From the NCBI RefSeq assembly GCF_000350525.1, contig NZ_AOCN01000012.1, positions 62,001 to 126,000 of the forward strand: 64,000 nt of DNA, given 5' to 3'. Positions within the stretch are counted from its first letter, which is position 1. Each line of letters begins with the position of its first letter. Of the stretch, positions 4,920-63,562 are shown in pieces. This DNA is from Leucobacter salsicius M1-8. GTDB lineage: Bacteria > Actinomycetota > Actinomycetes > Actinomycetales > Microbacteriaceae. The notes under the pieces are model-generated. The model did not search any database and was not told where the DNA came from. It saw only the letters and a program-made list of their open reading frames with translations. The position numbers and the translations under genes were made by a program.

Positions 4920-5320
4920 TACTGCTGCTTCCAAAACTCATCCAATCCACGCTGCACGGCGGTTACGTCGTCCGGCGTTCCAAATACTTCAAACCGGTAG
5001 AGGAAGGGCACTTGGCACTTCCTCGCAATAATGTCTCCTGCAATCGCGAAGCCCGTACCGAAATTCAAGTTTCCGGCGGCCATCACACCGCGAATGAGCC
5101 CGCGGTTCTTCTCGTCATTGAGAAATTTGATGACTTGCTTGGGTACGGCCCGGGTCTGCGGGCCACCGCCGTAAGTGGGGACGAGGAGCACATACGGCTC
5201 CGTCACCACGAGCGGTTCTTCACGCGCATAGAGGGGGATCCGGATCGCAGGGCGACCCAGCTTTTCAACAAAGCGCTTGGTGTTACCCGAAACGCTCGAG
5301 AAATACACCAAATCGGCCAT
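4919..5320 (-). CDS. nrdI: NrdI flavodoxin-like activase of class Ib RNR
   Basis: This 133-residue FMN protein supplies the oxidant for assembling the Mn2-tyrosyl cofactor of NrdF. The flavin phosphate loop [11 protein letters not shown] is at the N-terminus, and PTYGGGP plus AAGNLNFG are the further FMN-binding loops typical of NrdI. Two ATGs are close together; the second (5320) is chosen because the GAGG site is 9 nt from it but only 3 nt from the first (5326). It overlaps nrdE by one base and follows nrdH by 65 bp. Confidence 0.95.
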
Positions 5321-5385
5321 GATCATTTACCTCGATACCGCGATACCCCGAGGTCGTGAGACGCCGGGGTGGGTAAGTCGGGTGG

Positions 5386-5619
5386 CTAGGCCAACCGACT
5401 CGCGAGCGCCGAAATCTTGTCGGGGCGGAAGCCCGACCAGTGTTCGTCGTCGGTCACCACGACGGGAGCCTGGAGGTAGCCCAGTTCCTTCACCGTTTCG
5501 AGCGCCGTCTCGTCTTCAGAGAGGTCGAGCACGTTGTACTCAATTCCCTTGCTGTCGAGCGCACGATACGTCGCGGTGCACTGCACGCACGACGGCTTGG
5601 TGTATACCGTGATGGCCAT
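5386..5619 (-). CDS. nrdH: NrdH glutaredoxin-like redoxin
   Basis: This 77-residue thioredoxin-fold protein is the hydrogen donor of NrdEF, reduced by thioredoxin reductase. The redox motif CVQC is at the usual position after TVYTKPS. The C-terminal WSGFRPDKI is characteristic of NrdH. The ATG at 5619 fits the family start MAITVYTKPSC and has GAAGG upstream. First gene of the nrdHIE operon, under the paired boxes at 5660-5705. Confidence 0.96.
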   Translation of the reverse strand: MAITVYTKPSCVQCTATYRALDSKGIEYNVLDLSEDETALETVKELGYLQAPVVVTDDEHWSGFRPDKISALASRLA

Positions 5620-5659
5620 TTCACGCCCTTCTTTCAAAACACACGCGCCTCGGCCGAGG

Positions 5660-5705
5660 CACTACATATAGTGAACCACATCGAGCTCAACCACAACATG
5701 GTGTA
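5660..5705 (-). promoter_or_regulatory. Candidate NrdR box pair upstream of nrdH
   Basis: CACTACATATAGTG (5660-5673) is a near-perfect NrdR box. A second, less symmetric box CACAACATGGTGTA lies at 5692-5705 with centres about 32 bp apart, the same spacing as upstream of nrdF. This implies common NrdR control of both nrd transcripts. Confidence 0.75.
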
Positions 5706-5796
5706 GTTACAGCAATGTAGTTTTCCACCGGCTCTCCACCGATGCGGGGGCTTTCTTGGGGATTACTTTCCGCATCGTTCTGCGCCTTCAAGCGGG

Positions 5797-5805
5797 TTAT
5801 CCACA
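5797..5805 (+). promoter_or_regulatory. DnaA-box-like nonamer
   Basis: TTATCCACA matches the strict DnaA consensus and lies about 180 bp upstream of nrdH. DnaA control of nrd genes is known in E. coli. A single site in a G/C-rich genome may also be chance. Confidence 0.4.
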
Positions 5806-5866
5806 GGTGTCGGAGGGTGTGTGGAGATTCGCTCCCACCCCTCGCTCGGCGTGTCGCGCGTAGTGG

Positions 5867-6292: not shown

Positions 6293-6329
6293 GGGTGCAG
6301 GGTACGCCGCACCTCAGACGTTGGTGTCG

Positions 6330-8023: not shown

Positions 8024-8050
8024 CTGCCGCACGCAAGAAGTGTAATCGCG

Positions 8051-9904
8051 TTACTGCTGCTGCGCATACAGCTCGGCGTACGCTCCGCCCTGCGCGATGA
8101 GTTCAGCATGTGTGCCGTGTTCGAGAATGCGCCCGGCGCCCACCACGTAGATCCGGTCGGCTCCCTCGATCGTCGACAGCCGGTGCGCGATCGCGATCGT
8201 GGTGCGGCCACCGCGCGCGCCATCGAGCGCCCGCTGCACCGCACGCTCGTTGACGGTGTCGAGCGCGCTCGTCGCCTCGTCGAGGACGAGCACGCGCGGG
8301 TTCTTGAGCAGCACGCGCGCGATCGCGATGCGCTGCTTCTCGCCGCCCGAGAGCCGGTAGCCACGCTCCCCCACGACAGTGTCATAGCCGTGCGCAAACC
8401 CCGCGATCGCATCGTGAATGTTCGCGAGCCTCGCGGCCGCTTCGAGCTCCTCGAGCGTCGCATCGGGCTTGCCGTAGCGCAGGTTCTCGGCGATCGTCGC
8501 GTGAAACAGGTACGGATCCTGCGTCACGACGCCGATCCGATCCATGAGCGCCTCCTGCCGTAGGTCGCGCACGTCGTCTCCCGCGTAACGCACGCTGCCC
8601 GCGGTTGCATCGTAGAGGCGCGGCACGAGCGATCCGATGGTCGTCTTGCCGGATCCGGATGCCCCGACGAAGGCCACAAACTCACCGGGTTCCACCCGAA
8701 ACGACACCCGGTCGAGCGTGGGGCGCTCAGTCTCCTCGGCATCGGCGTAGCGAAAGGTGACGGCGTCGAACTCGATGCGCCCTGCGCGATCCGGAGCTTC
8801 GGAGGGGTCACGCGCATCGGGGGCATCTGAGATCGCAGGCACCAGATTCAGATACTCGAAGATGCGGGCGAACAGCGCTCGCGAGGTCTGGAGGTCGAGC
8901 GCGATGCGCATCAGCGCCATGAGCGGGAAGAGCAGCCGCGACTGCACGGTCGTGAACGCGACGATCGTGCCCGCCGTAATGCCGGGGTCGAAACCCTCGC
9001 CCTGGGCCGACGTGATGATGAAGCCCGAGACGAGGTAGACGATCGCCGGTACCGCCGACAGAAACACCTGCACCATCGCGAAGAAGTACTGCCCGCTCAT
9101 GGTCTGGCGCACCTGCAGGTCGATCTGCCGTGCGTTTTCAGCGGCGTAGCGATCGGTTTCGGCCCGCTGGCGGGAGTAGGTCTTGGCGAGCAGCACCCCC
9201 GACACCGAGAGGGCCTCCTGGGTGATCGCTGTCATCTCCGACAGTGACTCCTGCGTCTTCCCGGCGATGCGGGCGCGTACCTGGCCGACGCGGCGCTGCG
9301 CAATGACGAGCACGGGCATCAGCACGAGCGCGATCAGGGTGAGCTGCCAACTGAGGATGATCATTGCGATCGCCGCCGCGATCACCGTGACGGTGTTACC
9401 GATGACGTTTGACACCGTGTTGGTGAGCACGTTGGCGACGCCACCCACGTCGTTTTGCAGCCGAGACTGGATCACGCCGGTCTTGGTGCGTGTGAAGAAG
9501 CCGAGCTCCATAGCTTGCAGGTGGGAGAAGAGCCGCACGCGCAGGTCCCCCATCACCCGGTTGCCCACCCGCGCGGTGTAGAGGGTTTGCACGATGCCGA
9601 GACCGCTCGACAGCACGAACGCAGTGACCATCGCGCCGACGAGCCAGGCGAGCAGCGGCATGTTGGGGATACCGTCTTGCGGGAACAGGCCGTCGTCGAA
9701 GACGCGCTGCGTGATCAGCGGGGGCAAGATGCCGAGCCCTGCCGAGATCATGACGAGCGCGATGATGAGGGCGAGCTGGCGCTTGTACGGCCGAAACAGG
9801 TCGGAGATGTGGCGGCCGAGATTTGGAATCTCGGGCGCCGCCGCGTTTTGCTCACGCTGTTTTGCGGAGTCTCCGCCCGCCACTCCGCGCCCACCAGGTC
9901 TCAT
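8051..9904 (-). CDS. ABC exporter, fused permease and ATPase (MsbA/multidrug type)
   Basis: A 617-residue half-transporter working as a dimer in the membrane. Residues about 38-340 hold six membrane segments (for example LALIIALVMISAGLGI and TVTVIAAAIAMIILSW). The nucleotide-binding domain covers about 385-615 with Walker A GASGSGKTT, Q-loop VTQDPYLF, signature LSGGEKQR, Walker B VLVLDEATSALD and switch His AIAHRLST. Substrate unknown: drug, lipid or peptide. It sits in a leftward row with the DUF2207-like gene and the aminotransferase, and is separated from the glycopolymer genes by one gene. Confidence 0.93.
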   Translation of the reverse strand: MRPGGRGVAGGDSAKQREQNAAAPEIPNLGRHISDLFRPYKRQLALIIALVMISAGLGILPPLITQRVFDDGLFPQDGIPNMPLLAWLVGAMVTAFVLSSGLGIVQTLYTARVGNRVMGDLRVRLFSHLQAMELGFFTRTKTGVIQSRLQNDVGGVANVLTNTVSNVIGNTVTVIAAAIAMIILSWQLTLIALVLMPVLVIAQRRVGQVRARIAGKTQESLSEMTAITQEALSVSGVLLAKTYSRQRAETDRYAAENARQIDLQVRQTMSGQYFFAMVQVFLSAVPAIVYLVSGFIITSAQGEGFDPGITAGTIVAFTTVQSRLLFPLMALMRIALDLQTSRALFARIFEYLNLVPAISDAPDARDPSEAPDRAGRIEFDAVTFRYADAEETERPTLDRVSFRVEPGEFVAFVGASGSGKTTIGSLVPRLYDATAGSVRYAGDDVRDLRQEALMDRIGVVTQDPYLFHATIAENLRYGKPDATLEELEAAARLANIHDAIAGFAHGYDTVVGERGYRLSGGEKQRIAIARVLLKNPRVLVLDEATSALDTVNERAVQRALDGARGGRTTIAIAHRLSTIEGADRIYVVGAGRILEHGTHAELIAQGGAYAELYAQQQ

Positions 9905-9940
9905 GCCCTGAGCCTAGTACCAGCGCTATGCGCAGCGCCG

Positions 9941-11038
9941 CTAGATATTGAGCAGGTCGCCGATGCCCTCGAGCACGGCGCCCCCCGCATCGAGCACCTG
10001 CCCGACACCGCCAGTCGCCTCGGCGATGTGTGCGGCCATCTCGGCGAGCTGCGTGGCGTACATTGCGAACTCGGCGACCATGATCACATCGTCAAAGCCG
10101 GCTGCTGACGCCTCCAGCTGCGAGGATTCGATGCGCAGCACCTCGGCCCACTCCTTCTCCTGCTCAAAGAGGATCGCGTACGGCAACAGCTGCTCGTACA
10201 CGTGCAACCGGTCAAGCTCGTTCGACACGGGCACCCGTACCGCACCCTGAGGCGACTGCAGCACACGCAAACGGTCGGCCTCGGCCAAGCGAATGTACTC
10301 GCGCATCCCTTCGAGGTGACGCCGGGCCATCAGACTTGGCGGTAGAAACCTGCGCCACGGGCGCGGGCAGACGATGAGCGCCGCGATGGTCGCGCAGAAG
10401 GCCAGCGCGCCGACCATCACCCCGGCGGGTGCCGTCGCCTCGGTGCCCCATACCGCGCCGCAGATGCCAGCCACGACGACTGTCGCGGCCACCCCAATCC
10501 ACCCGAACACGTTGACGACGTTGCTCTGCCAGCGCACCGACCGGGCAGCGATCAGCCCCCGGCCAGCAAGATCGGCAACCGTATCGGCGAGCAACGCGGC
10601 CGCGCGCTTGCCCGCGGCACCACGATTGGTCACGAGGCGTCGGGCTGTGCGGTCCTTGGTCTGCTCCCCCAGAAACACGGCCAGCACGCGCTGCTCCTGG
10701 GCGTTGAACTGCACGCCGGGTGCCAGCTCGATCGAGAGCTGCTGCGCACCACGCTTCGAGGCTGTGGACGCTGCCTGATCCGGCTGCTGGCGATCCGGAT
10801 CATTCGGTTCAAGCAGCCGAATCTTCTTGCGGATTGCGAGATCGATGAGCGCGGCGGGCAGCGCCCGCGCGTCAGCGTTCGCGAGCACCGCGTCGAAGAG
10901 CACCGATGAATTGGGTAGCGGCGCGTACTCGGCGATGACCGTGCCGACGGGTTGCCGGGATCCGCGCCGGGACGCGATCGCGATGATGAGCAGGGTCGCC
11001 GCGGGAATGCCGGCGACGAGAATCGCGAAGAAAACCAT
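9941..11038 (-). CDS. DUF2207-like membrane protein, short form
   Basis: A 365-residue protein with one N-terminal membrane anchor (residues 1-22) and a central pair (about 175-225). The EYAPLPNSSVLFDAVL, ALPAALIDLAIRKKIRLLE and LEGMREYIRLAEADRL segments resemble the cytoplasmic C-terminal half of DUF2207/YciQ proteins. The large extracytoplasmic N-terminal half found in full-length members (about 550-600 residues) is absent. A glycine/isoleucine-rich tail follows. No clear ribosome binding site; the start is 9 bp after the CapK-like gene, so coupling is likely. Function unknown. Confidence 0.7.
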   Translation of the reverse strand: MVFFAILVAGIPAATLLIIAIASRRGSRQPVGTVIAEYAPLPNSSVLFDAVLANADARALPAALIDLAIRKKIRLLEPNDPDRQQPDQAASTASKRGAQQLSIELAPGVQFNAQEQRVLAVFLGEQTKDRTARRLVTNRGAAGKRAAALLADTVADLAGRGLIAARSVRWQSNVVNVFGWIGVAATVVVAGICGAVWGTEATAPAGVMVGALAFCATIAALIVCPRPWRRFLPPSLMARRHLEGMREYIRLAEADRLRVLQSPQGAVRVPVSNELDRLHVYEQLLPYAILFEQEKEWAEVLRIESSQLEASAAGFDDVIMVAEFAMYATQLAEMAAHIAEATGGVGQVLDAGGAVLEGIGDLLNI

Positions 11039-17038: not shown

Positions 17039-17998
17039 ATGCCTAATATTTCAGATCCACTCGCAAGCCTCGCAATCTTGGTCGTCAATTACGGTTCACA
17101 CGATGTGGTCGAGGCAAACCTCATCCGCTCACTGAGACACGAGTTTCCCGGTCAGGTTGTGATCGTGGATAACTTCACCACATCTGAGGAACGCCAGTCG
17201 ATGCGAGATGCGTGTTCGCGTCACGGCTGGACCCTGCTCGCGCTCGACACAAACGAAGGGTTTGGTGGCGGCAACAATCGCGGCGCCGACTTCGCAATCC
17301 GTCAAGGAGCGACTGAGCTCTTGATGGTCAACCCCGACGCATGGTTGAGCCTGGAGACAATCCGTCACATGCACGAGCAGGTACGAGAAGATCCGATGCT
17401 GCAGCTCGCCCCGGTCGTACTGCGCCCAGACGGGAGTCTGTACTGTGCTGAGGTCGATCTGCATCTGGAAAGCGGAGAAATGCGGGCGACGCGGAGGAGG
17501 CCGGCGGATGCAGATCCGGATCAAATACACACGTGGGTCAGCGGCGCGTGCTTCATAATGAGCGTCACCCTCTGGGAACGCCTAGGTGGGTTCGACGAGG
17601 AGTACTTCCTCTACTGGGAAGACGTCGACCTGTCGCGCCGGGTGGTGCAGTTGGGCGGCACCGTTCGGGCTGATTCCGAGCTCTCTGCGGTGCACGATGA
17701 GGGGACCACCCACCGTGTTTCAGGCGAGAACCGCGCAAAGTCGCCGATCTACTACTTCTACAACTCGCGCAACCGACTGCTGTACGCCGCGAAATTCCTG
17801 TCCCGTCCCGACGGCCAACGCTGGATGCGCCACACGCCTCGGGCGTCATACGGCATATTGCTGCAGGGAGGCCGGCGTCAGTTCATGAATCCTCGGCGAT
17901 CGATCTGGCCCGTGCTTCGCGGGAGCATTGCGGGGATGCGTCTGTGGCGATCCCGCACCAGCACCATTCGGCCAGAGAACCTCAATCCGAAACGCTGA
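17039..17998 (+). CDS. Family 2 glycosyltransferase, rhamnosyltransferase (WbbL)-like
   Basis: A 319-residue GT2 protein starting SLAILVVNYGSHDVV. NEGFGGGNNRGADFA and WVSGACFIM followed by GGFDEEYFLYWEDVDL are typical of dTDP-rhamnosyltransferases of the WbbL/RfbN group, consistent with rmlA, rmlB and rmlCD in the same locus. The start at 17039 fits the family. A longer in-frame start at 16934 exists but adds an unconserved 35 residues. The ribosome binding site is weak for both. Confidence 0.85.
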   Translation: MPNISDPLASLAILVVNYGSHDVVEANLIRSLRHEFPGQVVIVDNFTTSEERQSMRDACSRHGWTLLALDTNEGFGGGNNRGADFAIRQGATELLMVNPDAWLSLETIRHMHEQVREDPMLQLAPVVLRPDGSLYCAEVDLHLESGEMRATRRRPADADPDQIHTWVSGACFIMSVTLWERLGGFDEEYFLYWEDVDLSRRVVQLGGTVRADSELSAVHDEGTTHRVSGENRAKSPIYYFYNSRNRLLYAAKFLSRPDGQRWMRHTPRASYGILLQGGRRQFMNPRRSIWPVLRGSIAGMRLWRSRTSTIRPENLNPKR

Positions 17999-18129
17999 CT
18001 TTCTGCCTCAGCAGAAATTACTTAAAGTCGCCCACCGACCTTGGGCAAGCCCCCTACAATGCGATATCGGTCATCACCAGAGCAATGGCGCTTAAGGGTG
18101 TAGACCGCGAGCACCGAGGGGGCCGTGTC

Positions 18130-18753
18130 TTGAATAGATTGAGCACGGGCATTGCAGTTCGACACCGTTCGGCCGTCATCTTGTTGGCGGCCACAGCGGT
18201 CATCAGTTTGACCGGCTGCATGGCGAGCCCCGACGTGGGAGCCGGCAACGGACCACCAGATTCAAGCGGCGGCGGGAGCAGCACGCCAGCGTCTCAACCA
18301 GCTCCCCCAGTAAAGCCTGAGTCGGCGGGCAGCGTCGGCCCGGTTGAACAGCCCGAGCTTCCAGCGGTTGACGGAGAGCTGGATGAAACTATCAAGCTCT
18401 CCACCGGCTTCACGGTCGCGCTCGACTCGATTTCAGCAACGACCGTCAAGGCAGAAACCCCGGGAGATGTTGCGGGACCTGCCGTCGAGGTCGTTGTACA
18501 GGTCACCAACGTTTCTAAGGAGCCGCAGCGCGTAGATTCCGCTGTGGTCACGCTAGAGACCGACGAAGGTGACCTCGGGATCCCGACAATTGCTGGAGGG
18601 GCGTCAGCGCTGAAGGGCGAACTCGCCCCTCAAGAGAGCACCAAAGGGCACTACCTTTTCATGCTCGACCCAGCCGAGGGCCGAGACATCAGTATCAGTG
18701 TGAATTACGCAGCAGGAGAACCTGTCGCTAAGTTCACTGGGCGCACGCCCTAA
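18130..18753 (+). CDS. Secreted lipoprotein, DUF4352-like
   Basis: A 207-residue lipoprotein. The signal peptide has basic residues, then AVILLAATAVISLTGC, where LTGC is the lipobox and Cys is the lipidation site. A Gly/Ser/Pro-rich linker (about residues 35-75) leads to an immunoglobulin-like beta domain (GFTVALDSISA ... VEVVVQVTNVS ... GHYLFMLDP) resembling DUF4352. The start is uncertain: TTG at 18130 with GAGGGGG upstream, or ATG at 18085, which adds 15 residues. It lies 17 bp before the giant PKD protein, so the two are probably co-expressed and may act together at the surface. Confidence 0.75.
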   Translation: MNRLSTGIAVRHRSAVILLAATAVISLTGCMASPDVGAGNGPPDSSGGGSSTPASQPAPPVKPESAGSVGPVEQPELPAVDGELDETIKLSTGFTVALDSISATTVKAETPGDVAGPAVEVVVQVTNVSKEPQRVDSAVVTLETDEGDLGIPTIAGGASALKGELAPQESTKGHYLFMLDPAEGRDISISVNYAAGEPVAKFTGRTP

Positions 18754-18770
18754 GCGAGTCGGAGAAACTC

Positions 18771-21700
18771 ATGCCATTTGCCGGACGTGGCTTCAAAGCC
18801 ATCCTTGGTGCAATTACGACCGCGACACTGGTGGCGAGCGCCATTGTCCTGGGATCTGGGACCGCTGCCCTAGCCGCCGATCCAGTTCCTTCACCCCCGC
18901 CCTTCCTGCAACGCGACCAGTCGGTCGTGACCGGCGATCCGCTGCCCACCGTACAGATCGACAGCGGATACGTTTGGGCGCAAACAACCATCGGCTCCAC
19001 TGTGTACGCGGTCGGCCAGTTTGAGAACGCACGCGCAGCACTTGCTGCCCCAGGAACTTCTCTCACGCCACGCACCAACATTCTGGCGTTCGACATCAAT
19101 TCCGGCGCGCTGCTGCCCTTCGCCCCCACGGTCAACGGATCTATTAAGGCGGTAGCAGCATCTCCTGATGGCAAGCGAATCTACATTGGCGGCTCATTTA
19201 ATAACGTCAACGGCCAGACGCGTTGGAACATCGCCGCGCTCGACGCACAAACCGGGCAACTCGTTGCCGGTTTTGCCCCCTCCATCGGTGGCAACGGCGT
19301 CTATGCACTCGCAGCCGACGCCACTGGCGTCTATGTTGGAGGACTGTTCACCCAGGCAAACGGTACGGCCCGCACGAACCTGGCCGCGTTCGCCACTTCA
19401 AACGGTGCGCTACGGACCGATTGGGTGGCCCAGCCCGAACAGCAGGTGGACGCGATGATCATGGACCCCGACGGGCAAAACGTCATCGTCGGCGGCCGTT
19501 TCTCCAACGTAAACGGAGACGGCAAATGGCGCGGACTCGTGTCAGTCAATGCCAGCAATGGTCTAGTCAATCAGGCTTGGGAAGGCACCGCAAAGGTCAA
19601 GAACGGCTGGGGCACCGGATCAAACAAGGGCAAGGCCGGCATCTTCGCGCTCAATAGGGACGGCAACGCGGTGTATGGTACCGGCTGGGTGTTCGCGGAC
19701 GCGCAAACCGGCAACCTTGAGGGCGTGTTCTCTCTCAAGCCTTCATCAGGCACGACCCGATGGATCTCAGACTGCCTGGGTGACCACTACGGTGTTTACT
19801 CCACAGGAAGTGTGGTGTATTCGACCACTCACTCCCACGCTTGCAGCACCAACGGGCTCTGGCCCGAGCAGCCCACTCGTCAGTATAAGTACGTTCAGGC
19901 TATGACTGCGGACGCTCGAGGAACGCTGTCTCGCCAGCCGCACGCTGGGAGCACCTACGTCAATTGGGAAGGCGAAGCCGCCCCGTCAGCATACGCATGG
20001 TACCCAGACTTCTTCACGGGCACAGCGTCTGGCCTAGGTCAGGCCGGTTTGTCGATCACTGGAGCGGGCAACGTCATCTCGATCGCCGGCGAATTTCCTG
20101 GCGTGAATAATCGTTACTTCCAAGGAATCGTGCGCTTCTCGAGCACCCCGCCAGGCGGCGCAAAGGACGGCCCTCGAACAACCACGGCAGCCTGGGGTGC
20201 GCCAACCGCTTCGTCAGTTGTGCCCGGACGTATCAGGCTGTCGATCAATGGCACCTGGGACCGCGACGATCGCGACCTCACCTATGAACTCACACGGTCC
20301 GGCACGACCAACCCGGTCGCATCTGTCACACGCTCCAACGGTTGGTGGAACGTACCCACCGTGAGCCTGACTGACACAAACGTAGTGGCCGACCAGAGTT
20401 ACACCTACCGAATTACCGTAAAAGACGGTGATGGCAATGCCGTTGTGAGTGCCCCAGTTACGGCGACGGCGAGCGCCGGTACCGCAGCCGAGTACACCAG
20501 CGCAGTCCTCGACGATGGCGCCAACCTGTACTACCCGCTAGGCAGCAGCACTGTCGACTGGGCCGGAGCAAATCCACCGGTGTTTGGTAGCGGTGCACAG
20601 GCCCAGCAGCCGAGCGCTGTGAATGGCTCCAGCACTGGCTTCACGAACTTCACTGGTTCGAGCACGGGCCGCGTCTCGAGTTCCTTTAAGACGGCAACCC
20701 CCTCGGATTTCACCGCCGAACTGTGGTTCAAGACCACGACAAACCGTGGTGGCAAGTTGCTGGGATACGGCAACGCGCAAACCGATTCTTCGTCGTCCTA
20801 CGACCGCCATATCTACATGCGAAATGACGGCCGACTCAACTTTGGCGTGTACCCGGGATCGACCAAGGTCGTGACCACCACGTCACCGCTAAACGACGGC
20901 AAGTGGCATCACGTCGCAGCAAGCCTCAGCACTGGCGGAATGAAGCTGTTCGTTGACGGGCAGCTCGCGGCATCTGACCCGACCGTCTCCTATGGAGAGG
21001 GCTACAGCGGCTACTGGCGCGTCGGAGGCGACAACCTCAGCAGCTGGCCGAACGCACCGACGTCAAACTGGTTCTCAGGGGCGATCGACGAGGTTGCTGT
21101 GTACCCGAGCGCGCTCACCCCATCTCAGATCGCTACACACTATGCAATTGGAACGGGCAGAACCGCCCCAACTGCGAGCTTCACCTCTGCAGCCAATGAG
21201 CTAGCCGTCAACTTCAACGGCTCCGGATCCACTGTGTCACCGGGCGGCACCATCGCAAACTACAGCTGGGATTTCGGCGACGGGTCTGCCGTGGCTTCTG
21301 GAGCCTCGGCCACCACAACGCACACCTTCCCCGCCACCGGAACCTACACGGTGACACTCACTGTTCGCGATGACCAGGGACTCATCGGATCCGTGTCCAA
21401 GGAAGTATCCGTGCTCGGCCCGAACTCGCTCCCAACCGCTTCGTTTACGTCAGCGGCCAACGGCCTGACTGTCTCAACGGACGGCACCGGATCGAGCGAC
21501 ACCGACGGTACCATTTCCTCCTACTCTTGGAACTGGGGAGATGGCAGCGCGGCTGGCTCTGGCTCGCTGGCAACTCACGACTACGCCGCAGCCGGCACCT
21601 ACGAGGTCAAGCTGACGGTCACCGACGACCGGGGTGGCACGGCAACCACGAGTCGTCAAGTCACAACAACCCACGACGCTCCCGTAGCAACATTTTCTAC

Positions 21701-23714: not shown

Positions 23715-23787
23715 TTCGGCGGCCCCTTGTCGAGTTTCTAGAGCGCGAGCCTTTCCAAAGCACTAGACATCGGCAAGCATAGGAAAC

Positions 23788-27616: not shown

Positions 27617-27623
27617 GGCTGGC

Positions 27624-29102: not shown

Positions 29103-29162
29103 CCGGACCAGGCAGTAGGGTGGCAGCACGGGGATGGCAGGGTCGCACGGGGAAGGAACGCT

Positions 29163-30994: not shown

Positions 30995-31011
30995 GAACGG
31001 ATACTGGGCCC

Positions 31012-33314: not shown

Positions 33315-33316
33315 CG

Positions 33317-36508: not shown

Positions 36509-36637
36509 ACAGTTGAGGATTCCTAGCGTGAACGTATTACCCACGGCCGCAATTACTCACGGCAGCGGCTGATATCCCCTGAAACTCGCGCTAGCCTAAC
36601 CCGATTTCACCTCCCAAAGTAACCTCGCTGCGTACAT

Positions 36638-40846: not shown

Positions 40847-40936
40847 GTGGGGTCCTTTCGAAGAAGCTCCGGATCGCCCCAGTCTACGCAGCCGCCGCTT
40901 GGCGGCCCGCTCCCAGTCTCACCCGCTCCACAGATA

Positions 40937-42540: not shown

Positions 42541-42550
42541 GATCCGGATC
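42541..42550. repeat. Palindromic decamer GATCCGGATC (intergenic copy)
   Basis: One of ten exact copies in the window. Positions are 5237, 10792, 17513, 36802, 42541, 48161, 50190, 57275, 61192 and 63008 (first base). Two are intergenic; the others fall in at least three codon phases. See the separate finding. Confidence 0.8.
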
Positions 42551-46116: not shown

Positions 46117-46282
46117 GGATGTTCCCTTCGTTCCCTCTAGCTTGGCGGAGCGCACGGGGGCCACGCCTCCCCCTCTCGGGGGAATTCGGGCGGCCGATCC
46201 GGTGCGGTGTAATCGCGCACGCCGCTCCGGATCCCCCTCACGGAGGAGGCGATCGTGGTGGCCGGTCACTACGCTGAATCTC

Positions 46283-47683: not shown

Positions 47684-48390
47684 TCCGGGTACTACTCGTC
47701 GACGACCAGGCGCTCGTGCGCTCGGGCTTTCGCATCATCCTCGAAACGGAGCCCGACATCGAGGTCGTGGGCGAGGCTGGCGACGGCGTCGCAGCCATCG
47801 AGCTCGCGAAGTCCCTCGCCCCCGATGTGATCTGTATGGACGTCGAGATGCCCCGGCTGAACGGCATTGAGGCCTCGCGCCGCATTCTGGCGGCTACCCC
47901 TCACTCCTCCGTACTGATCCTCACGACGTTCGGTCACGAGGAGTACCTGTTCGACGCCCTCGCCGCCGGCGTCAGCGGCTTTCTCGTGAAAACCGCCCGT
48001 GCCGAACAGCTCATCGACGCGGTCCACACGCTCGCCGCCGGCGGCGCGCTCCTCGGCACGGATGTCACCCGGGCGGTCATGGAGCGGGCCACGCGCCCCG
48101 CAGGTGCGATGTATTCGGGCGATGCCGCGGCCGCGGCTCCTGTCGATTCGGGCGATGCCGGATCCGGATCAACACAAAACCCAGACCCGTTTGTCGCCGT
48201 GGGACTCACGGAGCGTGAGCGTGACGTGCTGCGGCAGCTCGCGACGGGCGCGTCGAACGCCGAGATTGCGGCCGCGTTGTTTGTGGGCGAGGCCACCGTG
48301 AAGACCCACGTGTCCAACGTGCTGCAAAAGCTAGGCGTACGTGACCGCATTCAGGCGGTCGTGTGGGCGCACACGCGCGGCGCGGCCTAG
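47680..48390 (+). CDS. LuxR/NarL-type response regulator
   Basis: A 236-residue regulator. Receiver domain 1-120 with phospho-Asp D54 in VICMDVEMP, acid pocket VDDQ and Lys in FLVKTA. The C-terminal helix-turn-helix (about 172-232) contains LTERERDVLRQLATGASNAEIA (in part LTERERDVLRQLA) and EATVKTHVSNVL. An Ala/Gly/Ser-rich linker of about 40 residues separates the domains. AGGAGG lies upstream of the ATG. Likely target: the adjacent divergent NatAB-like exporter. Confidence 0.94.
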   Translation: MIRVLLVDDQALVRSGFRIILETEPDIEVVGEAGDGVAAIELAKSLAPDVICMDVEMPRLNGIEASRRILAATPHSSVLILTTFGHEEYLFDALAAGVSGFLVKTARAEQLIDAVHTLAAGGALLGTDVTRAVMERATRPAGAMYSGDAAAAAPVDSGDAGSGSTQNPDPFVAVGLTERERDVLRQLATGASNAEIAAALFVGEATVKTHVSNVLQKLGVRDRIQAVVWAHTRGAA

Positions 48391-50011: not shown

Positions 50012-51851
50012 CTACTCGCTGAGCTGACGGCGCGACCTTCGCAGCCCCGCCCCTCCGACGGCGAGCGCGAGCAAGAGGCACAGACCCACGATTGCGAAGG
50101 CGGGCGAGTGGCCTTCAGCGCCCGTCGCGCTCAGCCCCGCGGCCTCAGGCCCGTTCGGGCTACCCTCGCTACCAGCACCGTTCGCCGCTGATCCGGATCC
50201 CGCGGCTTGCGAGGCAGCTGCGCTTGACGCGCCCGCGGTGGCGCCGGCGGCCGCGGCGTTGTCGACCCCACCAGCGGTATCCGCAGTGGCATCGACCGTG
50301 GGTGTTGGCGGCTTAATGACGGGCCTCGCGCTGTCCCCCAGCACGATGAGTTCGCCGCCACGAGCACTCACGGGCACCCCGTTTGCCTGTGCCTTCAGGC
50401 TCGAGAGAATGATCTCGTCGATCTCGGGGCACCACGTTCTCGAACTTGATTGTGCGGCGGGCCCCCGGGAGGATACTGCCCTCCAGCTCTTGGTTCTGGG
50501 GAATGATTGTGTCCAGCTGCACCGCGATGCTGGTGAGTGTTTCGGGGCTGTTGTTCTCGACGAGCACGTACACCTCGATCTTCTCCCCCGGCGACGCCGC
50601 GCCGTCCCCATTGGTGTCAATGACTCGCGCCTTCACGTCGGTGCGCACGTCAATGGGAGCTGGCACCGCTGGCGAAAACTTGGCTGTGTTGTTGGCCAGG
50701 TTCGTGTCTACCTCGTTGAGCTCGACACGGCCGGTCCACTGACTCGCAACCACCGAAGCGTCTACGGGCGCACCCAACTCGAACCGCAGGCTGCGTGATT
50801 CACCGGGCTGCAGCGCACCGCCGATGCATTGGTGGGCTCCCACCGTGGCAGTACAGGTTCAAGGCGCGGTTACCGGACGAGTGTCTGCGGTGTCTGGGGC
50901 CAGCCGCAGCTGGTAACCGGTGATCAGCGTTGAACCGACGTTGTGCACTGTGGCAGTGACGAGGTGAGTGTCGCCCGCGCCCGTACGCTCCGAAGCGACC
51001 TTGAGCGCCACGTCGCCGGGCGGCGGCGGGATCATGGCACCGTCGAGTTGATTTGATGTCTCCCCGGTGGAGTAACCTACGACCTCAGCCGCAATCGGGT
51101 CCACCGAAGTGATCTTGATCTGCACCGACCCTCCGCCGTTCGACATGAAGCCGAGATTGCCATTGCCGTAGGTCCATGCAGCACCAAAGCTGCCGCTCTT
51201 GACCCGCGAGGAGTCGAGCGCGGGGATCGCCCCGGGGGTCACAGCTCCGTCGAGGGAGACACGTGTCAGTTTCGCCTGGTTGCCCGTGCCCGAGAGCCCC
51301 CAGAAAAACCCGTCGTTCCAGGCCATACCGATGGGCTCAAACTTTTGCGGCAGCGTCTTCACGCCACACGAATTCGACGCCACCACGTCAAAGCAGCCGA
51401 GCTCTCTCCCGCCATTTGCAACATAGAACAGCTGGTCTTCAAACGCGCCTGCACCGAAAGCTGCGGCTGAACTCGAACTTCCAAACCTCGTAATGCCACC
51501 GTCGCTGTTGATAACGTTCTCGACCGATCCGTCATCGAGAATCCGCAGGAGCGTGCCGCCATTGTTTGCAATCGCGTACAGCGACGAGGTGGGAAGGTGC
51601 GCCGCAAGTGCATTGTAGGTTGTGGCCGCGGGGGCACCCACCGTCTCCATCGTCAGCTTACCGTCGGCATCAATCTGCCCGCGAGTGAGCTGCGTCGGGT
51701 CACCCACAGAGATGTAGAGGCCGGGTTCATGCTGAGCGGAGCCCGCCGCGTGGGCGATGCTCGTCGGAACGATAGCTCCGGCAAGCACGACGGCACCTGC
51801 GACCAGCAGTGCGCTCAGGCGCCTCGAAACATTTGATGCCCGAAGGGCCAT
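50012..51851 (-). pseudogene. Sortase-type surface protein gene with nonsense and frameshift lesions
   Basis: ATG 51851 (GGGGAG upstream) starts a signal peptide (LSALLVAGAVVLAGAIVP, cleavage near AHA). A propeller-like repeat region follows (GLYISVGDPTQLTRGQID, LYAIANNGGTLLRIL). TGA at 50859-50861 stops this frame, but the same frame continues as TCTATVGAHQCIGG with DUF11-like repeats until a GGGG run at 50426-50429. One extra base there shifts the frame; removing it restores VVPEIDEIILSSL. The shifted frame continues through an Ala/Gly/Ser-rich region to LSATGAEG, a hydrophobic helix and RRSRRQLSE, a sortase-like wall-anchor signal. It converges with the sigma-factor gene (9-bp gap). Confidence 0.82.
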
Positions 51852-52734: not shown

Positions 52735-53637
52735 ATGGACCTGCCCGTGGAGCACCTGCAAACCTTCGCCGCCATCATCGCAGAGGGCAGCTTCGAAGGT
52801 GCCGCCCGGCGCCTGCACATCACTCCCTCGGCCGTGAGCCAACGCGTGCGCGCCATGGAGCAACGCTCCGGATCCGTGCTGCTGCGCCGCACCCGGCCCG
52901 TCACCACCACCGCTGCAGGTGCGACCGTGCTGCGCGCCGCCCGACAGGTCGAACAGATCATGAGCGACGTCGCGGTCGAACTCGAGCAGGGCCCGGCGGG
53001 CGGTGCACTGATTCCCATCGTCGTCAACGCCGATTCACTCGCAACCTGGTTCGTGCCGGCGCTCGCCCGCGCGGCCCGCGAGACCGGTGCCCGCTTCGAG
53101 GTGCTACGCGCCGATGAAACCGTATCCACTGAAAAGCTCCGCAACGGTGAGGTGATGGCCGCGCTCACGGCCACCGCTGAAGCGGTGCCCGGCTGCACCT
53201 CCACACACATCGGGGTCGACCGGTACCGCGCCGTCGCAAGCCCCGAGTTCGCCGCCACTCACTTTGCCGAAGGTGTTACCGCAGAAGCCCTCGCCGTCGC
53301 CCCCATCGTGGAGTTCGACCGCCACGATGCCTTTCAACGCCGCTTCATGCGGCAGGTCACGCGCGCCACTATCTCTCCACCACGCCATTTCGTGCCGTCG
53401 TCGGCCGAGTTTGCCCACGCGGTCGCCCTCGGCATGGGCTGGGGCATGCTCCCCGAGCTGCAGTGCGCCCCCGGCATCGCCGCGGGCACCCTGGTGCCGC
53501 TGGGCAGTGACTCGTCCCTCGACCTCCCGCTGTACTGGCAGCGATGGAACTTGCGCTCCCCCGCCCTCGACGCCCTCTCCGCAATCATTGCCGATGAGGC
53601 GCGGGTCGCCCTGGCCCCATCCGAATCACACCCCTAA
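52735..53637 (+). CDS. lysG: LysR-family regulator, LysG/ArgP type
   Basis: A 300-residue regulator. The N-terminal winged helix contains LQTFAAIIAEGSFEGAARRLHITPSAVSQRV (in part GSFEGAARRLHITPSAVSQ), typical of the ArgP/LysG branch, followed by the effector domain with VVNADSLATWFVPAL. It should activate the divergent lysE with basic amino acids. TAACTT at 52723-52728 ends six bases before the ATG, which suggests a leaderless mRNA; no ribosome binding site is seen. Confidence 0.92.
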   Translation: MDLPVEHLQTFAAIIAEGSFEGAARRLHITPSAVSQRVRAMEQRSGSVLLRRTRPVTTTAAGATVLRAARQVEQIMSDVAVELEQGPAGGALIPIVVNADSLATWFVPALARAARETGARFEVLRADETVSTEKLRNGEVMAALTATAEAVPGCTSTHIGVDRYRAVASPEFAATHFAEGVTAEALAVAPIVEFDRHDAFQRRFMRQVTRATISPPRHFVPSSAEFAHAVALGMGWGMLPELQCAPGIAAGTLVPLGSDSSLDLPLYWQRWNLRSPALDALSAIIADEARVALAPSESHP

Positions 53638-56877: not shown

Positions 56878-58413
56878 CTAGTCGCTAATACCGGTCAGCC
56901 GACGGCGCAGGTGCACGCTCGCACGCCGCGCATCCTCCACTGCCGACGCGAGGTCGCCGGCGTGCAGCCCGCGGCCCACGCGCAACTGCCAGGCGTGCTC
57001 GATCCGCTCAGCGGCGAGCTCCTCGGCTGCGGCGTCACGCGCCTGCACCTGCGCCCAGGGCGCCAACTGCCATTCGACATCGGCGTGCGCGAGCGCGGGA
57101 TGCTCCTCGCGTACGGCCTGTAGCTGCGCGCCCGCGTCACCCTGCGCTGCATCGGCCGACCCCGCGGCAGTCACGCGCCACTGGTCTCGCGCCACGCGTT
57201 CGTACTGCACCGACCATCCCGATACGCCACTGGAGACCGCGACAACGTCGCAATCGGCACTGCCTTCGCCCGCTGATCCGGATCCCTCCGACGCAGCGGC
57301 CGCGGCCGCTGCGAGGCCCGCGGGCAGATCCGCGATCGCCGCGGGCGCCTGGAGCGTCGCGCGCCAGAGCGCGTGCTCTGCGTCGCGCGCAAAAGCGCGG
57401 AGCGCATCGGGCACTGCCCAGCGCGCCGAGATCCCCGCGATGACGGCGACGACGTCGATGGCCTCGCCGTCGTGCTCAATAACGCGCCAGTGGGGCGAGA
57501 ACAGCTGGGCCACGGCCGAGTCGGCGCGCGCACCACCCGCCGCGTCCTCAAGTCTGATGGCCTCGACAACCGGGGCCCCGAACTGCACCCCGTAGAGCGC
57601 AAGCCGTTCGATGAGCGCGGCGCGCAGGCCCTGCCACCCTCCGGCGGGGCGCACTCGCGTCTCGCGGGCAGCATGATCCTCGGCCTCGGTGAGCACAGCC
57701 CCCGAGAGCGATCCGGCGACCGTGAGCGCGCCATTCAGACCCGGGGCGGCGATCGCGACGTCGACGTCGTTCGCGGAGACACCGAAGCGCGCACGCACAA
57801 GCGGATCCACCACGCGATCGAGCATCTGCTGCCCCATGCGGCTGCGTACCAGCGTTCCAAGCGCAGTCGTCTTGCCGATGGTGAGCACCGGGCGCACGCG
57901 GTCGACCGAGGCGCGCAGCGCGCCCCGCCCACCGAGCAGCGCGATCGAATCGCTCGACATGGGCACCGCGGGCACGCCCCACACGTTGGGTTCGGGTAGC
58001 GGCTGCCAGTCGCCGTTCGCGCCGCGCAGCAGCGTGCGGCTCGGCGCGCAGGCCTCGGGCTCGGCCGCGGCGAATGCTCCGGCCGGCGCGTGGCCGAGAG
58101 TCTCACTGTCGACCGCGGGCGCGTCCTCCCGGGCCGTCGCTTCCGGGCCCGTCTGCTCCGGGCCCTCGATGGGGCCCGCCACGTGCGCGAGGAATGCACG
58201 CAGCACACCGTCGGGGTCCGAGGCACCGCAATCCGGCGCAGTTATAGCACGCGCATCGGCAGCGAGCACATCGGTATCGAGCACCGCAGTATCGAGCTGC
58301 GACGCGGGCAGCCCCGCGGGCACCCCAACGCGCACGCGCAGGCCGACCTCGGCGAGTTCAAGAGCCGCGGCGAGCTCGGGGATTCCGTGGCCGATGACGT
58401 AGGCGTCAAGCAT
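56878..58413 (-). CDS. Porphyrinogen-oxidase/amine-oxidase-like protein with degenerate FAD motif
   Basis: A 511-residue protein with the overall pattern of HemY/HemG-type flavoproteins: N-terminal beta-alpha-beta start, GGRGALRASVDRV, GQQMLDRVVDPLVRARFGVS (in part MLDRVVDPLVRARFGV), PAGGWQGLRAALIERL, and GRGLHAGDLASAVEDARRA at the end, like the FAD-contacting C-terminal motif. However, the nucleotide loop reads VIGHGIPELAAAL: the third Gly of GxGxxG is Glu, and the Glu that normally follows beta-2 is missing. It may have lost FAD or bind it differently. The CPBP gene overlaps its start by 8 bp. Exact activity is uncertain. Confidence 0.6.
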   Translation of the reverse strand: MLDAYVIGHGIPELAAALELAEVGLRVRVGVPAGLPASQLDTAVLDTDVLAADARAITAPDCGASDPDGVLRAFLAHVAGPIEGPEQTGPEATAREDAPAVDSETLGHAPAGAFAAAEPEACAPSRTLLRGANGDWQPLPEPNVWGVPAVPMSSDSIALLGGRGALRASVDRVRPVLTIGKTTALGTLVRSRMGQQMLDRVVDPLVRARFGVSANDVDVAIAAPGLNGALTVAGSLSGAVLTEAEDHAARETRVRPAGGWQGLRAALIERLALYGVQFGAPVVEAIRLEDAAGGARADSAVAQLFSPHWRVIEHDGEAIDVVAVIAGISARWAVPDALRAFARDAEHALWRATLQAPAAIADLPAGLAAAAAAASEGSGSAGEGSADCDVVAVSSGVSGWSVQYERVARDQWRVTAAGSADAAQGDAGAQLQAVREEHPALAHADVEWQLAPWAQVQARDAAAEELAAERIEHAWQLRVGRGLHAGDLASAVEDARRASVHLRRRLTGISD

Positions 58414-59584: not shown

Positions 59585-59627
59585 AGTGTCAATCTTCTCA
59601 CTCGTGTGCGGTGATGCGGGTGAGAGA

Positions 59628-59667
59628 AGGCGCCCACTTACCCAGGTATCTGGGTAAGTGGGCGCCT
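59628..59667 (-). terminator. Terminator of glyS
   Basis: Perfect 18-bp arms 59628-59645 and 59650-59667 with a 4-nt loop, about 20 bp after the glyS stop; a TCTCT tract follows in the leftward direction. Confidence 0.85.
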
Positions 59668-59687
59668 CCGGCGTGTGCAGCTGGTGA

Positions 59688-61073: not shown

Positions 61074-61114
61074 GTGTTTTATCACTCCAAGGGGCAAGCG
61101 GGGATCTTGGGAAT

Positions 61115-61135
61115 GCGCGCCAAAACCTGGCGCGC
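61115..61135. terminator. Short GC-rich hairpin between LCP gene and glyS
   Basis: 8-bp arms 61115-61122 and 61128-61135 with a 5-nt loop, followed by no long T tract. It may terminate the LCP transcript (stop at 61210) or be part of the glyS leader. A GATCCGGATC copy lies just upstream at 61192-61201. Confidence 0.45.
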
Positions 61136-61209
61136 CCAGGGGCAAGTCTATCGGCGCATGGGCGCACCTGCTGATGCCCGATTCACAGCGCGATCCGGAT
61201 CCGGCCGCC

Positions 61210-62277
61210 CTAGGGCAGTTCAGAGCCGGGCCCGTGAAGGGCGGCGAACTCAGCCAGCGTGCCGGATTGGAAGGCGGCTTGCATGTTCGCGATCTCGGCC
61301 CAGTTGGGGAGCACGATCGACTGTCCATCAGTCGAGGTCCCCGTGCCCAGCGTGGGGCTCGTAAAGAACTCGATGGTGTCGGCGCGCACGGTGCGCATGT
61401 CGAAGCCCAGCCGCATCGCCTCCGGCAGGTCCAGCTCCTCGTCAAGAATTAAATACGATTTCAACGCGTTGAACGTATCCATGAGCTTGGTCGCATCGGT
61501 CAATGTGCCCTTGCTCAGCACCTGCTTCATGAGGCCCTGCAGGTACGCCTGCTGATTGCGCGCCCGCTGGTAGTCCCCATCGGCAAAGGCGTAGCGTTCG
61601 CGCACGAACGAGAGTGCCTGGTCGCCGTTCAGCGTGATGTCGCCCTCGGCAAAGGTGAAGCCTCCGCCCCCGTTCTGGGCGGTGAAGGCCTGCGAGTTGT
61701 GCACGGTCACGCCGCCCACCGCATCCGTCAGTCCCTTAAACGACTGGAAGTCAACGAGCGCGACGTGATCGATGCGTGCGCCAATGAAGTTCTCGACCGT
61801 GTTGACGGCGAGCGGCAGGCCGCCGAGCGAGAAGGCGGCATTGATCTTTGCCTCACCAAAGCCCTGAATCGGCACCCAGTTGTCGCGCATGATCGAGACG
61901 ATGGTCACGACCTCGCGGTCGGGCGAGACCTGGGCCACCATCATTGCGTCGCTGCGAAACCCCGTGAGGTCTTCGACATTGGTCAACGGGTCAGTCGATT
62001 CTCGCGAGTCGGAGCCCAACAGCAGAATGTTGATCGGTGCCTGCATCCCGTCGGCCACGGCGACGGCCGCCGGTCGCGTCAGCGACGGGTCCTGATGAAT
62101 ACTGAAACGACGCACCTCGTTGTACGAGCTCGACAGCAGCGCATACCCGATGCCCGCAGCAATCACCAGTAACGCGATCAGGACCCCCACTGCGATAAGC
62201 AAGTTGCGCAGGCCACGGCGCCGTTTTCTGGCCGGTCGCGCTCCCCCAAGTTCAGTAGGTGTGTACGCACTATTCAT
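61210..62277 (-). CDS. LytR-CpsA-Psr (LCP) family protein
   Basis: A 355-residue membrane-anchored phosphotransferase that attaches undecaprenyl-linked glycopolymers to peptidoglycan. A basic cytosolic N-terminus RPARKRRRG, one helix [20 protein letters not shown] (in part [16 protein letters not shown]), then the LCP domain with [42 protein letters not shown] and [16 protein letters not shown] (in part [10 protein letters not shown]), which carry the conserved Asp/Arg residues. AGGAG lies 7 nt before the ATG. Plausible attachment enzyme for the polymer made by the 11-40 kb locus; inferred. Confidence 0.93.
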
Positions 62278-62398
62278 GACAAGCTCCTGTCCCCTGGCTG
62301 GACTCGCCGCATCGCCTGCGCACGTGTAGCACGCGCGATGTGACCACCTATTTTCCGGGAACCACCCGGCGGGCGCAAGACGCTAGCCTGAAGACATT

Positions 62399-63562
62399 AT
62401 GAGCGAACCTGTCGGCCGCATTCTGCTGCGTTTTGCGCCCGCGATTTACGGGCCCACGGCGCTGTTTGCGGTGGGGGAAGGAGCCATTCTCCCGATTCTG
62501 CCGGTGCTCGCGACGCGCCTCGGCGCCGATGTGGCGCTCGCAACGCTCATCGCCGCAATGCTGGTGATCGGCCAGCTCATCGGAAACTTGCCCGCGGGTT
62601 GGGCGGTGGCGCGATTCGGGGAACGCCGGTCGATGGCGGTCTCTGGCGTGGTCGCGCTTGCGGGAGCCACCGGAGCCGCGCTCGCGCCCACGCTGTTTCT
62701 GCTCGGGGTCGCCACGCTCGTCATCGGCTTGAGCGCGGCGGTGTTTGGGCTCGCCCGCCACGCGTTTTTGACCATCCACGTTCCCGCCGCGATGCGCGCG
62801 CGGGCGCTGGCGGTGCTCGCGGGCACGTTTCGCTTCGGCACCTTTACCGGGCCGTTCATTGCCGCGGGGCTTCTTGCGGCAACGGGCAGCCCCGCCGCAG
62901 CGGCCTGGTTCTTCGCCGCCTGTCTCGTGCTGACGGTTGCGCTCGTGGTGGTCGCGCGCGAGCCCGAGATGCCCGCTCGGGCTGCTTCCGTCCCTTCCGC
63001 GGCAGGCGATCCGGATCATAAGCCGCACTCCACCGCGCCACGCGAACGAGACGCCGAGCAGACGGGGGTCTTCGCGACCATGGTGCGACACCGCGGCGTG
63101 CTCGCGAGGCTCGGTCTCTCGGCCGCCACGCTCGCCGCGCTGCGCTCGGCCAGGCAGGTACTCATTCCCGTGTGGGGCATCGCGATCGGCGCCGACCCCG
63201 GAACGATCGCCCTTGTGACGGGCATCTCGGGGGCGTGCGACTTTGCGCTGTTCTACGCGAGCGGTCAGATCACCGACCGGTTCGGTCGGCTCTGGGCCAC
63301 GACGCCGGCGATGCTACTCATGAGCGTTGGGCTGATCGTGCTCACGCTCGGCGCCGACCTCGCGCCGCGGGGCAACCCCGCGCCGTTCTTTGGCTCGTGG
63401 CACACGATCAGCGACGCGGGCGGAGCTGCGGCGCCCCTCATCATCGCGGGCATCGCCGCGGTGTCGCTGCCCGCAGCGTCGGCCGTCATGGGCGTGCTGG
63501 GGCTGCTGGGTGCCGCGGGGTTTCTCCGCTGGATGCCCCGCTACGTGCCCCGCAAGCGGTAG
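62399..63562 (+). CDS. MFS transporter, apparently missing part of helices 9-10
   Basis: A 387-residue transporter. Helices 1-8 look regular (ILPILPVLATRLG, AGWAVARFGERRSMA motif A, RFGTFTGPFIAAG, GQITDRFGR). After AMLLMSVGLI the sequence jumps directly to VLTLGADLAPRG, a motif that in relatives follows an additional membrane segment and loop of about 35-40 residues. The total is about that much shorter than usual. Then SDAGGAAAPLIIAG and the last helix follow. The reading frame is intact. Substrate unknown; function may be impaired. Confidence 0.85.
   Translation: MSEPVGRILLRFAPAIYGPTALFAVGEGAILPILPVLATRLGADVALATLIAAMLVIGQLIGNLPAGWAVARFGERRSMAVSGVVALAGATGAALAPTLFLLGVATLVIGLSAAVFGLARHAFLTIHVPAAMRARALAVLAGTFRFGTFTGPFIAAGLLAATGSPAAAAWFFAACLVLTVALVVVAREPEMPARAASVPSAAGDPDHKPHSTAPRERDAEQTGVFATMVRHRGVLARLGLSAATLAALRSARQVLIPVWGIAIGADPGTIALVTGISGACDFALFYASGQITDRFGRLWATTPAMLLMSVGLIVLTLGADLAPRGNPAPFFGSWHTISDAGGAAAPLIIAGIAAVSLPAASAVMGVLGLLGAAGFLRWMPRYVPRKR

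Follow-up and report, generated by a model that had tools for sequence, protein, structure and literature searches.

A strongly enriched ten-base palindrome in two sister Leucobacter genomes as a candidate lineage-specific signal

Introduction

Which process would place one and the same ten-base palindrome, GATCCGGATC, ten times into 64 kb of an actinobacterial chromosome? The question was raised by a stretch of 64,000 nucleotides from Leucobacter salsicius M1-8 (hereafter the window; part of contig C12 of this genome, G000), in which a sequence-only reading had recognised the repeated palindrome and had likened it to HIP1 of cyanobacteria. Following the palindrome through the genome and its relatives, we found it strongly enriched in two of 593 genomes, where it stands in single copies without shared flanks, is not accounted for by codon choice and obeys a rule of two halves. 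We consider it fairly probable that GATCCGGATC represents a lineage-specific, genome-wide signal of dimer type that is selected or driven for density, a reading which overlaps with some of the alternatives weighed below.

HIP1 lies in genes as well as between them. In the sections of Elhai (2015; PMC4390886) on which we rely, HIP1 (GCGATCGC) and the alternate HIPs are described as short perfect palindromes containing GATC and occurring far over expectation, at a frequency of ~500–2500 per Mb. They are abundant in some cyanobacterial genomes and low or replaced in relatives, combine a strict core with more deviation at the outer positions, and the role of HIP1 was at that time still called a mystery.

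Abundance and distribution

All ten exact copies proposed for the window were confirmed (listed below) and compare with a mean of 0.09 and a maximum of 1 in 100 dinucleotide shuffles. The complete 3,185,418-base genome of L. salsicius (28 contigs) holds 409 copies and a sister Leucobacter genome (G096) 265 in 3.18 Mb, equivalent to densities of ~128 and ~83 per Mb, respectively. Statistics beyond these counts are based on samples of 455 kb (63 copies) or 595 kb (82 copies) of G000, the sampled contigs not being a random draw, and of 800 kb (58 copies) or 820 kb (59 copies) of G096. After masking of the exact copies, an order-3 Markov model predicted 0.68 copies for the 595 kb, which include the window, and 0.36 for the 820 kb. 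Raising the order to 4, 5 and 6 gave 2.0, 7.8 and 12.6 expected copies in the same 595 kb, values probably still inflated because enriched half-sites remain. GATCCGGATC is hence, as the definition of HIPs has it, a perfect palindrome of at least 8 bases far above Markov expectation, and the strong over-representation postulated from the window alone is borne out. The same 10-mer read backwards had 0 copies in G000; CTAG is generally avoided and, because this control contains it, the comparison is a weak one. Regarding composition, GCCGGC is under-represented in the 455-kb sample of G000 (532 vs. 996 expected, both strands) and runs of six C or G are scarce (57 vs. 258).

Counts of the 10-mer cover 593 distinct genomes, drawn from the family (150), the genus (54) and the phylum (396). 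More than 129 copies were present only in G000 and G096. The next highest counts (129, 117 and 114) all belong to Leucobacter, in samples with higher G+C, while the maximum outside the genus was 72 and, within the same family outside the genus, 59 followed by 57. Order-2 expectation, determined for 46 of the 54 Leucobacter genomes and for most relatives from 20 kb only, was exceeded 86 fold in G096 and 66 fold in G000; the other 44 sampled Leucobacter reached at most 9.5 fold, eight of them staying below 1. Counts close to Markov expectation, which would have spoken against a signal, are thus not observed, nor is the motif limited to conserved DPD/GSG codons. Pooling 43 other Leucobacter samples gave a 3.8 fold excess of GATCCGGATC next to 5.6 fold for the unrelated palindrome CGGGATCCCG; this excess being no greater than that of unrelated palindromes, only the pair of G000 and G096 stands out. 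The two were also grouped with full support in a tree of a conserved 287-aa methylase (30 of 33 copies, three with split matches left out). Restriction to two sister species indicates that the signal is probably young.

No comparable alternate palindrome was found in the other Leucobacter, whose 20–80 kb samples are too small to exclude one. In the 43 pooled samples, GGATCC is the top palindromic hexamer by z-score (824 vs. 457) and CGTCGACG the top palindromic octamer (312 vs. 140). One further Leucobacter genome carries six exact copies of GATCCGGATC within ~410 bases (G150:C1:492443-492854), perhaps in a gene for a repetitive protein. Among the matches listed from the open-licence literature, no title of a paper containing the 10-mer dealt with a genome-wide motif, and none on over-represented palindromes, HIP1-like motifs or Leucobacter methylomes showed such a motif outside cyanobacteria.

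Gene context and codon choice

Based on gene calls from a simple purpose-made gene finder, 51 of the 63 copies in G000 lie in predicted genes (30, 11 and 10 in phases 0, 1 and 2), 11 are intergenic and one spans a gene end. The 58 copies in G096 divide into 42 genic (phases 28/6/8) and 16 intergenic ones, the latter share being somewhat above the 16.9% of non-coding sequence (p 0.036).

One explanation would take the palindrome for a by-product of codon and dipeptide usage. Its commonest reading is indeed Asp-Pro-Asp (DPD; 30 of the 51 genic copies), and the 3.8 fold excess over the order-2 model in the 43 other Leucobacter samples points the same way. Speaking against it, copies are found in every codon phase as well as outside genes, and shuffling synonymous codons within the same proteins (40 shuffles) left a mean of 2.1 exact genic copies in G000 (maximum 5 or 6 in two runs) compared with 51 observed, and of 2.5 in G096 (maximum 8) compared with 42. 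The earlier assertion that amino-acid choice does not explain the motif is thereby confirmed; we reject codon and dipeptide usage as an explanation and give it practically no credence.

The reverse influence, of the motif on codons, is considerable. Where DPD precedes L, P, H, Q or R, it is spelled with GATCCGGATC in 30 of 34 cases in the 455-kb sample of G000 and in 28 of 40 in G096, so that the motif nearly exhausts the opportunities provided by Asp-Pro-Asp in the proteins. The corresponding fractions are 10/18 and 8/27 for xIRI tetrapeptides, and 11/24 and 6/27 for (R/G)SGS. DPD itself exceeds its composition-based frequency 2.9 fold in G000, 1.95 fold in G096 and 1.8 fold in the other Leucobacter samples. 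In alignments with relatives several copies face other residues (DPD for DPA or DPG) and others identical ones; from these differences, some copies probably arrived together with amino-acid changes.

Within the window, seven of the ten copies are inside predicted genes, reading DPD four times, GSG twice and IRI once. The differing codon phases noted before were recovered, whereas the number of intergenic copies had been given as two and is three by our gene calls. The copies are as follows, palindromic sites being listed without strand.

5237–5246: exact GATCCGGATC copy in predicted gene, phase 2 (AIRI)
10792–10801: exact GATCCGGATC copy in predicted gene, phase 0 (DPDR)
17513–17522: exact GATCCGGATC copy in predicted gene, phase 0 (DPDQ)
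36802–36811: exact GATCCGGATC copy in predicted gene, phase 0 (DPDR)
42541–42550: exact GATCCGGATC copy between predicted genes
48161–48170: exact GATCCGGATC copy in predicted gene, phase 1 (GSGS), overlapping CCGGATCCGG at 48158
50190–50199: exact GATCCGGATC copy between predicted genes
57275–57284: exact GATCCGGATC copy in predicted gene, phase 1 (GSGS)
61192–61201: exact GATCCGGATC copy between predicted genes, overlapping CCGGATCCGG at 61195
63008–63017: exact GATCCGGATC copy in predicted gene, phase 0 (DPDH)

The longest copy-free gap of the window (17,523–36,801) covers a stretch of lower G+C that codes for a beta-helix protein and a PKD/laminin-G surface protein, with a weak glycosyltransferase match at its edge.

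Site anatomy

Alignment of 63 copies with 40 bases on each side revealed nothing shared beyond the ten bases apart from a weak lean toward A, found as the first outer base, read outwards, in 48 of 126 cases. The copies are single. REP elements and small mobile palindromic repeats likewise come in many palindromic copies, but the missing conserved flank sets GATCCGGATC apart from them, and this candidate was rejected.

Near copies follow a clear rule. All single-mismatch forms together are enriched 3.7 fold, led by GCTCCGGATC/GATCCGGAGC with C at position 2 (28 vs. 1.3 expected in 455 kb of G000), while GTTCCGGATC (T at position 2) reached 8 vs. 0.8 and GGTCCGGATC (G) 4 vs. 0.7. The respective values in 800 kb of G096 are 28 vs. 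0.8, 5 vs. 0.5 and 0 vs. 0.3. Changes of the fourth base sum to 0 vs. 3.7 in G000, and to 4 vs. 4.0 in G096, neither enriched nor depleted there. The class GATCCGGnnC, with nn other than AT, counts 154 vs. 28.8 (G000) and 148 vs. 27.6 (G096), whereas GnnCCGGnnC without an exact half falls below expectation (498 vs. 598 and 664 vs. 929). In these half copies, C occupies position 2 of the inexact half 83 times out of 154 (G000) and 110 times out of 148 (G096), which gives that half a tendency towards GCnCC that is more pronounced in G096. Codon choice does not account for these classes either: genic half copies in both orientations number 128 vs. 38.6 (G000) and 121 vs. 47.6 (G096) under synonymous shuffling, and genic sites without an exact half 219 vs. 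292 and 288 vs. 415. One half is thus exactly GATCC, the outer G and C are kept, and position 2 of the other half is mostly C. The same half also builds a second palindrome, CCGGATCCGG, which is 24–26 fold enriched (40 vs. 1.5 in 595 kb of G000, both strands) and in genes exceeds synonymous shuffles with 13 vs. 1.3 (G000) and 9 vs. 1.4 (G096). Such a pattern would be left by a two-fold symmetric protein with one indispensable half-site; such a dimeric reader would be expected to bind GATCCGGAGC more weakly and GCTCCGGAGC not at all.

The emphasis that had been laid on near copies ending in GATCCGGATG turned out to be misplaced. They exist, at 2838, 8652 and 22902, a few bases from where they had been put, and are weakly enriched (4 vs. 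1.0 expected in 455 kb). Further near and related sites in the window are:

8649–8658: CCGGATCCGG, second palindrome formed from the half-site GATCCGG, over-represented in the genome sample
8788–8797, plus strand: one-half variant GATCCGGAGC, most enriched single-mismatch form (28 vs. 1.3 in 455 kb)
21220–21229, minus strand: one-half variant GCTCCGGATC
40866–40875, minus strand: one-half variant GCTCCGGATC
46224–46233, minus strand: one-half variant GCTCCGGATC
52865–52874, minus strand: one-half variant GCTCCGGATC

Turnover, spacing, and chromosomal placement

Conservation in relatives had been put forward as a test of the signal. Between the sampled parts of both carriers, six of 69 G000 copies and eight of 59 G096 copies could be aligned, giving 12 independent places. 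The copy is retained at two of them, compared with identity of 45 of 200 and 26 of 134 random 10-mers. The alleles at the unshared places are diverse. These data suggest that copies turn over between the two genomes, and conserved regulatory sites were rejected as an explanation with copies mostly not conserved at the few places compared.

Taking both genomes together, one gap between copies is shorter than 500 bases compared with 7.9 expected (p 0.0017), and 12 are shorter than 1500 bases compared with 22 (p 0.003), p-values uncorrected for the eight thresholds tried. The gap counts suggest that full copies avoid lying closer than 1.5 kb to one another. In each of the two genomes, full copies also avoid half copies within 1 kb (41 vs. 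57.5, p 0.02, and 13 vs. 20.1, p 0.045), an effect not seen at distances up to 300 bases (p 0.18 and 0.57). Among half copies there is no mutual avoidance in either genome.

The palindrome is spread round the G096 chromosome. Twenty sampled stretches of 40 kb contain 58 copies, 0 to 7 each, with no trend evident, and clustering at the origin or terminus was rejected. GATCCGG half copies in 800 kb of G096 amount to 145 on the forward and 145 on the reverse strand, without strand bias; divided by GC skew, which is weak, they count 63/65 in 8 negative and 82/80 in 12 positive stretches. Oriented motifs of the Chi or KOPS type were consequently rejected, the full site being palindromic and its half copies showing no strand bias along the replichores.

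The region just before the window (G000:C12:1-60000) holds two copies vs. ~9 expected (p 0.006), having been chosen after the low count was seen. Blocks of it are 88–95% identical to ~1,767–1,783 kb of G096:C1, compared with an average of ~80% for aligned genome parts, and one of the two shared copies is located within this 88–95% region, in a 510-base stretch of 96% identity. A gene for a 716-aa PF01555 methylase, which by its size would be type III-like, a gene for an M23 peptidase and a weak ParB_N match just under the curated cut-off led us to take this region for a mobile element, which it probably is, and the count suggests that this mobile region is poor in copies. Genic copy density was lowest in the quarter of genes with the least typical codon usage, at 7.0 per 100 kb vs. 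10.2–21.8 in the other quarters of G000 and 3.8 vs. 5.5–10.4 in G096.

DNA uptake and the split comEC gene

A DNA uptake signal, with copy-bearing DNA being preferentially taken up and recombined, could show the dispersal inside and outside genes, the tendency of copies to keep apart and the scarcity in the mobile region that are seen here. In PMC1939737, the uptake sequences of Neisseriaceae and Pasteurellaceae share with GATCCGGATC the many dispersed exact copies and the large share in genes; significant even spacing (Karlin) is cited there, yet judged less even than compaction expects. According to the same source these known signals are non-palindromic, unlike GATCCGGATC.

The state of comEC also speaks against uptake. 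PF03772 (comEC) matches were obtained in 52 of 54 Leucobacter genomes. The gene of both carriers begins only at the position equivalent to residue 297/298 (VSGAN) of an intact 882-aa relative (G168), and foreign genes occupy the missing side. The cut genes are located at:

G000:C26 (L283:5467-7143): cut comEC, missing side occupied by a DUF5677 gene and a gene for an Mrr-type nuclease
G096:C1 near 343,724 (L153:3724-5442): cut comEC, missing side occupied by an AbiV-like gene and a gene for a large serine integrase

An intact uptake machinery was thus not found in either assembly, the missing comEC part not having been searched for elsewhere. Uptake by the comEC route seems to be off at present unless the inserted DNA leaves; excision could restore the gene. 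Because comEC is split in both carriers, uptake, one of the kinds of signal suggested earlier, is disfavoured, and the listed open-licence literature on Leucobacter competence or uptake names the genus once per match. We regard an uptake signal as improbable. In five more Leucobacter genomes the comEC matches start at about the same profile position (26–28), so defence islands may have integrated into comEC repeatedly.

Candidate methylases

Methylases were searched as candidate readers of the palindrome. PF00145 had no match in G000 and one in G096, PF02086 none in either genome, and PF02384 three in G000 and none in G096. Cytosine-5 methylation with Vsr-type repair was rejected on the lack of a PF00145 match in G000, and Dam-type methylation on that of a PF02086 match in both carriers. 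Common to both are two PF01555 proteins: a 287-aa DPPF methylase (93% identical), whose best solved-structure matches are RsrI, CcrM and a further methyltransferase, and a small TSPPY methylase-like protein (69% identical). The former is encoded at:

L195:1411-2274 (G000:C22): 287-aa DPPF methylase gene, adjoining pdxS
L196:1411-2274 (G096): 287-aa DPPF methylase gene

One copy of the palindrome that the two carriers have in common lies within this orphan-looking gene. Of 54 Leucobacter genomes, 33 have the 287-aa enzyme (in two frames in the case of G165) and 12 the TSPPY protein; the sharp rise in G000 and G096 is therefore not explained by either one alone.

A HIP1-type process, in which the site or its core is marked by an orphan amino-methyltransferase and then multiplied and maintained by repair or selection linked to that mark, would fit several of these findings. 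The frequency pattern resembles that of HIP1, the carriers share both PF01555 proteins, and position 2, where A is the regular base, is next most often C, the other base with an exocyclic amino group (C/T/G 28/8/4 in G000 and 28/5/0 in G096). Motif excess also tends weakly to be higher where the 287-aa enzyme is present (median 2.9, 30 genomes) than where it is absent (1.2, 14 genomes; p 0.004, pair excluded and kinship uncorrected). A target of 10 bases is long for a methylase. Both enzymes occur in other Leucobacter, none of which exceeds 9.5 fold among those sampled, T and G at position 2 are likewise above expectation in G000 (8 vs. 0.8 and 4 vs. 0.7), and matches to PF00145 and PF02086 were absent from G000, those to PF02384 from G096. 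We hold the methylation-linked process for rather unlikely.

Biased repair that turns near copies into the exact palindrome, a drive without function, would agree with the turnover between the sister genomes and with the lack of a positional function. It should deplete the precursor, yet the single-mismatch forms are enriched 3.7 fold overall, and the diverse alleles at unshared orthologous places do not fit. A Vsr-like version would deplete C-to-T forms, which number 2 vs. 2.0 (G000) and 5 vs. 2.6 (G096) at position 5, and 0 vs. 1.1 and 2 vs. 1.1 at position 4; G000 moreover is without a PF00145 methylase. Since neutral drive does not predict the avoidance of close spacing either, we consider it improbable.

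Discussion

The Markov excess and the codon shuffles support the general interpretation of the palindrome as a genome-wide signal comparable to HIP1. As described in the sections of PMC4390886 cited above, HIP1 shares with GATCCGGATC the short perfect palindrome with GATC, the lineage-limited excess, the strict core and the looser outer positions. GATCCGGATC differs in its host, the actinobacterium Leucobacter instead of a cyanobacterium, in its 10 bases and its densities (~128 and 83 per Mb) below the ~500–2500 per Mb of HIPs, and in its avoidance of close spacing, which is not described for HIP1 in those sections.

Noc, MatP and ParB-type proteins bind palindromic dimer sites that are scattered irrespective of genes, numbering in the tens and often regional. 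GATCCGGATC is similarly palindromic and scattered irrespective of genes, and unlike these sites it has ~400 copies and, in the 20 stretches sampled, is distributed all round the chromosome of G096. A dimeric reader is what the rule of two halves points to; less firmly, the turnover of copies and their tendency to keep apart argue that density rather than place is selected. On these grounds we rank a chromosome-binding protein first and a methylation-linked process of HIP1 type second, with uptake and neutral drive behind. In the mechanism we propose, GATCCGGATC would be a recognition site that spread recently through the chromosomes of G000 and G096, read by a two-fold symmetric DNA-binding protein, and selection would act for a site per kilobase-scale stretch of resident chromosome and not at a given gene. 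The most likely reader would be a nucleoid protein binding as a dimer. That a dimeric chromosome-organising protein binds GATCCGGATC is, taken for itself, a tentative proposition with less than even chances. The same caution applies to its full form, in which a dimeric DNA-binding protein of the two sister Leucobacter would need GATCCGGATC or GATCCGGnnC every few kb and would have rewritten hundreds of places, codons and some amino acids included, since the split from their relatives.

Several observations weigh against a dimer-type signal kept for density. Twelve orthologous places are few, the spacing p-value is 0.05 at 2000 bases, and from 3000 bases up the effect is absent in the two genomes together. 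By coefficient of variation, gaps in G000 do not exceed random ones in regularity (p 0.61, with p 0.038 in G096), density per 20 kb is uneven in G000 (variance 4.2, mean 2.6; 1.35 and 1.44 in G096), and G000 half copies cluster below 500 bases (30 gaps below 300 vs. 20.1). No regulatory role is evident, the intergenic share in G000 (11 of 63) being in line with 14.1% of non-coding sequence (p 0.47). Half copies in G096 favour one coding phase, 45 of the 120 genic ones standing in same-strand phase 0, and the preference for C at position 2 is weaker in G000 than in G096, other bases there also lying above expectation. The pooled samples of 43 other Leucobacter have a 3.8 fold excess of GATCCGGATC, with unrelated palindromes behaving likewise (CGGGATCCCG, 5.6 fold). 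No reader protein was found in a search that covered methylases, other kinds of DNA-binding protein not having been searched for. For an essential nucleoid protein, rapid turnover and confinement to two species would be unusual.

With a HIP1-like expansion confined to two sisters among the 54 Leucobacter genomes searched, its gain, its turnover and the gene responsible become traceable by simple comparison. The palindrome also illustrates the extent to which codon choice can yield to a short DNA signal.

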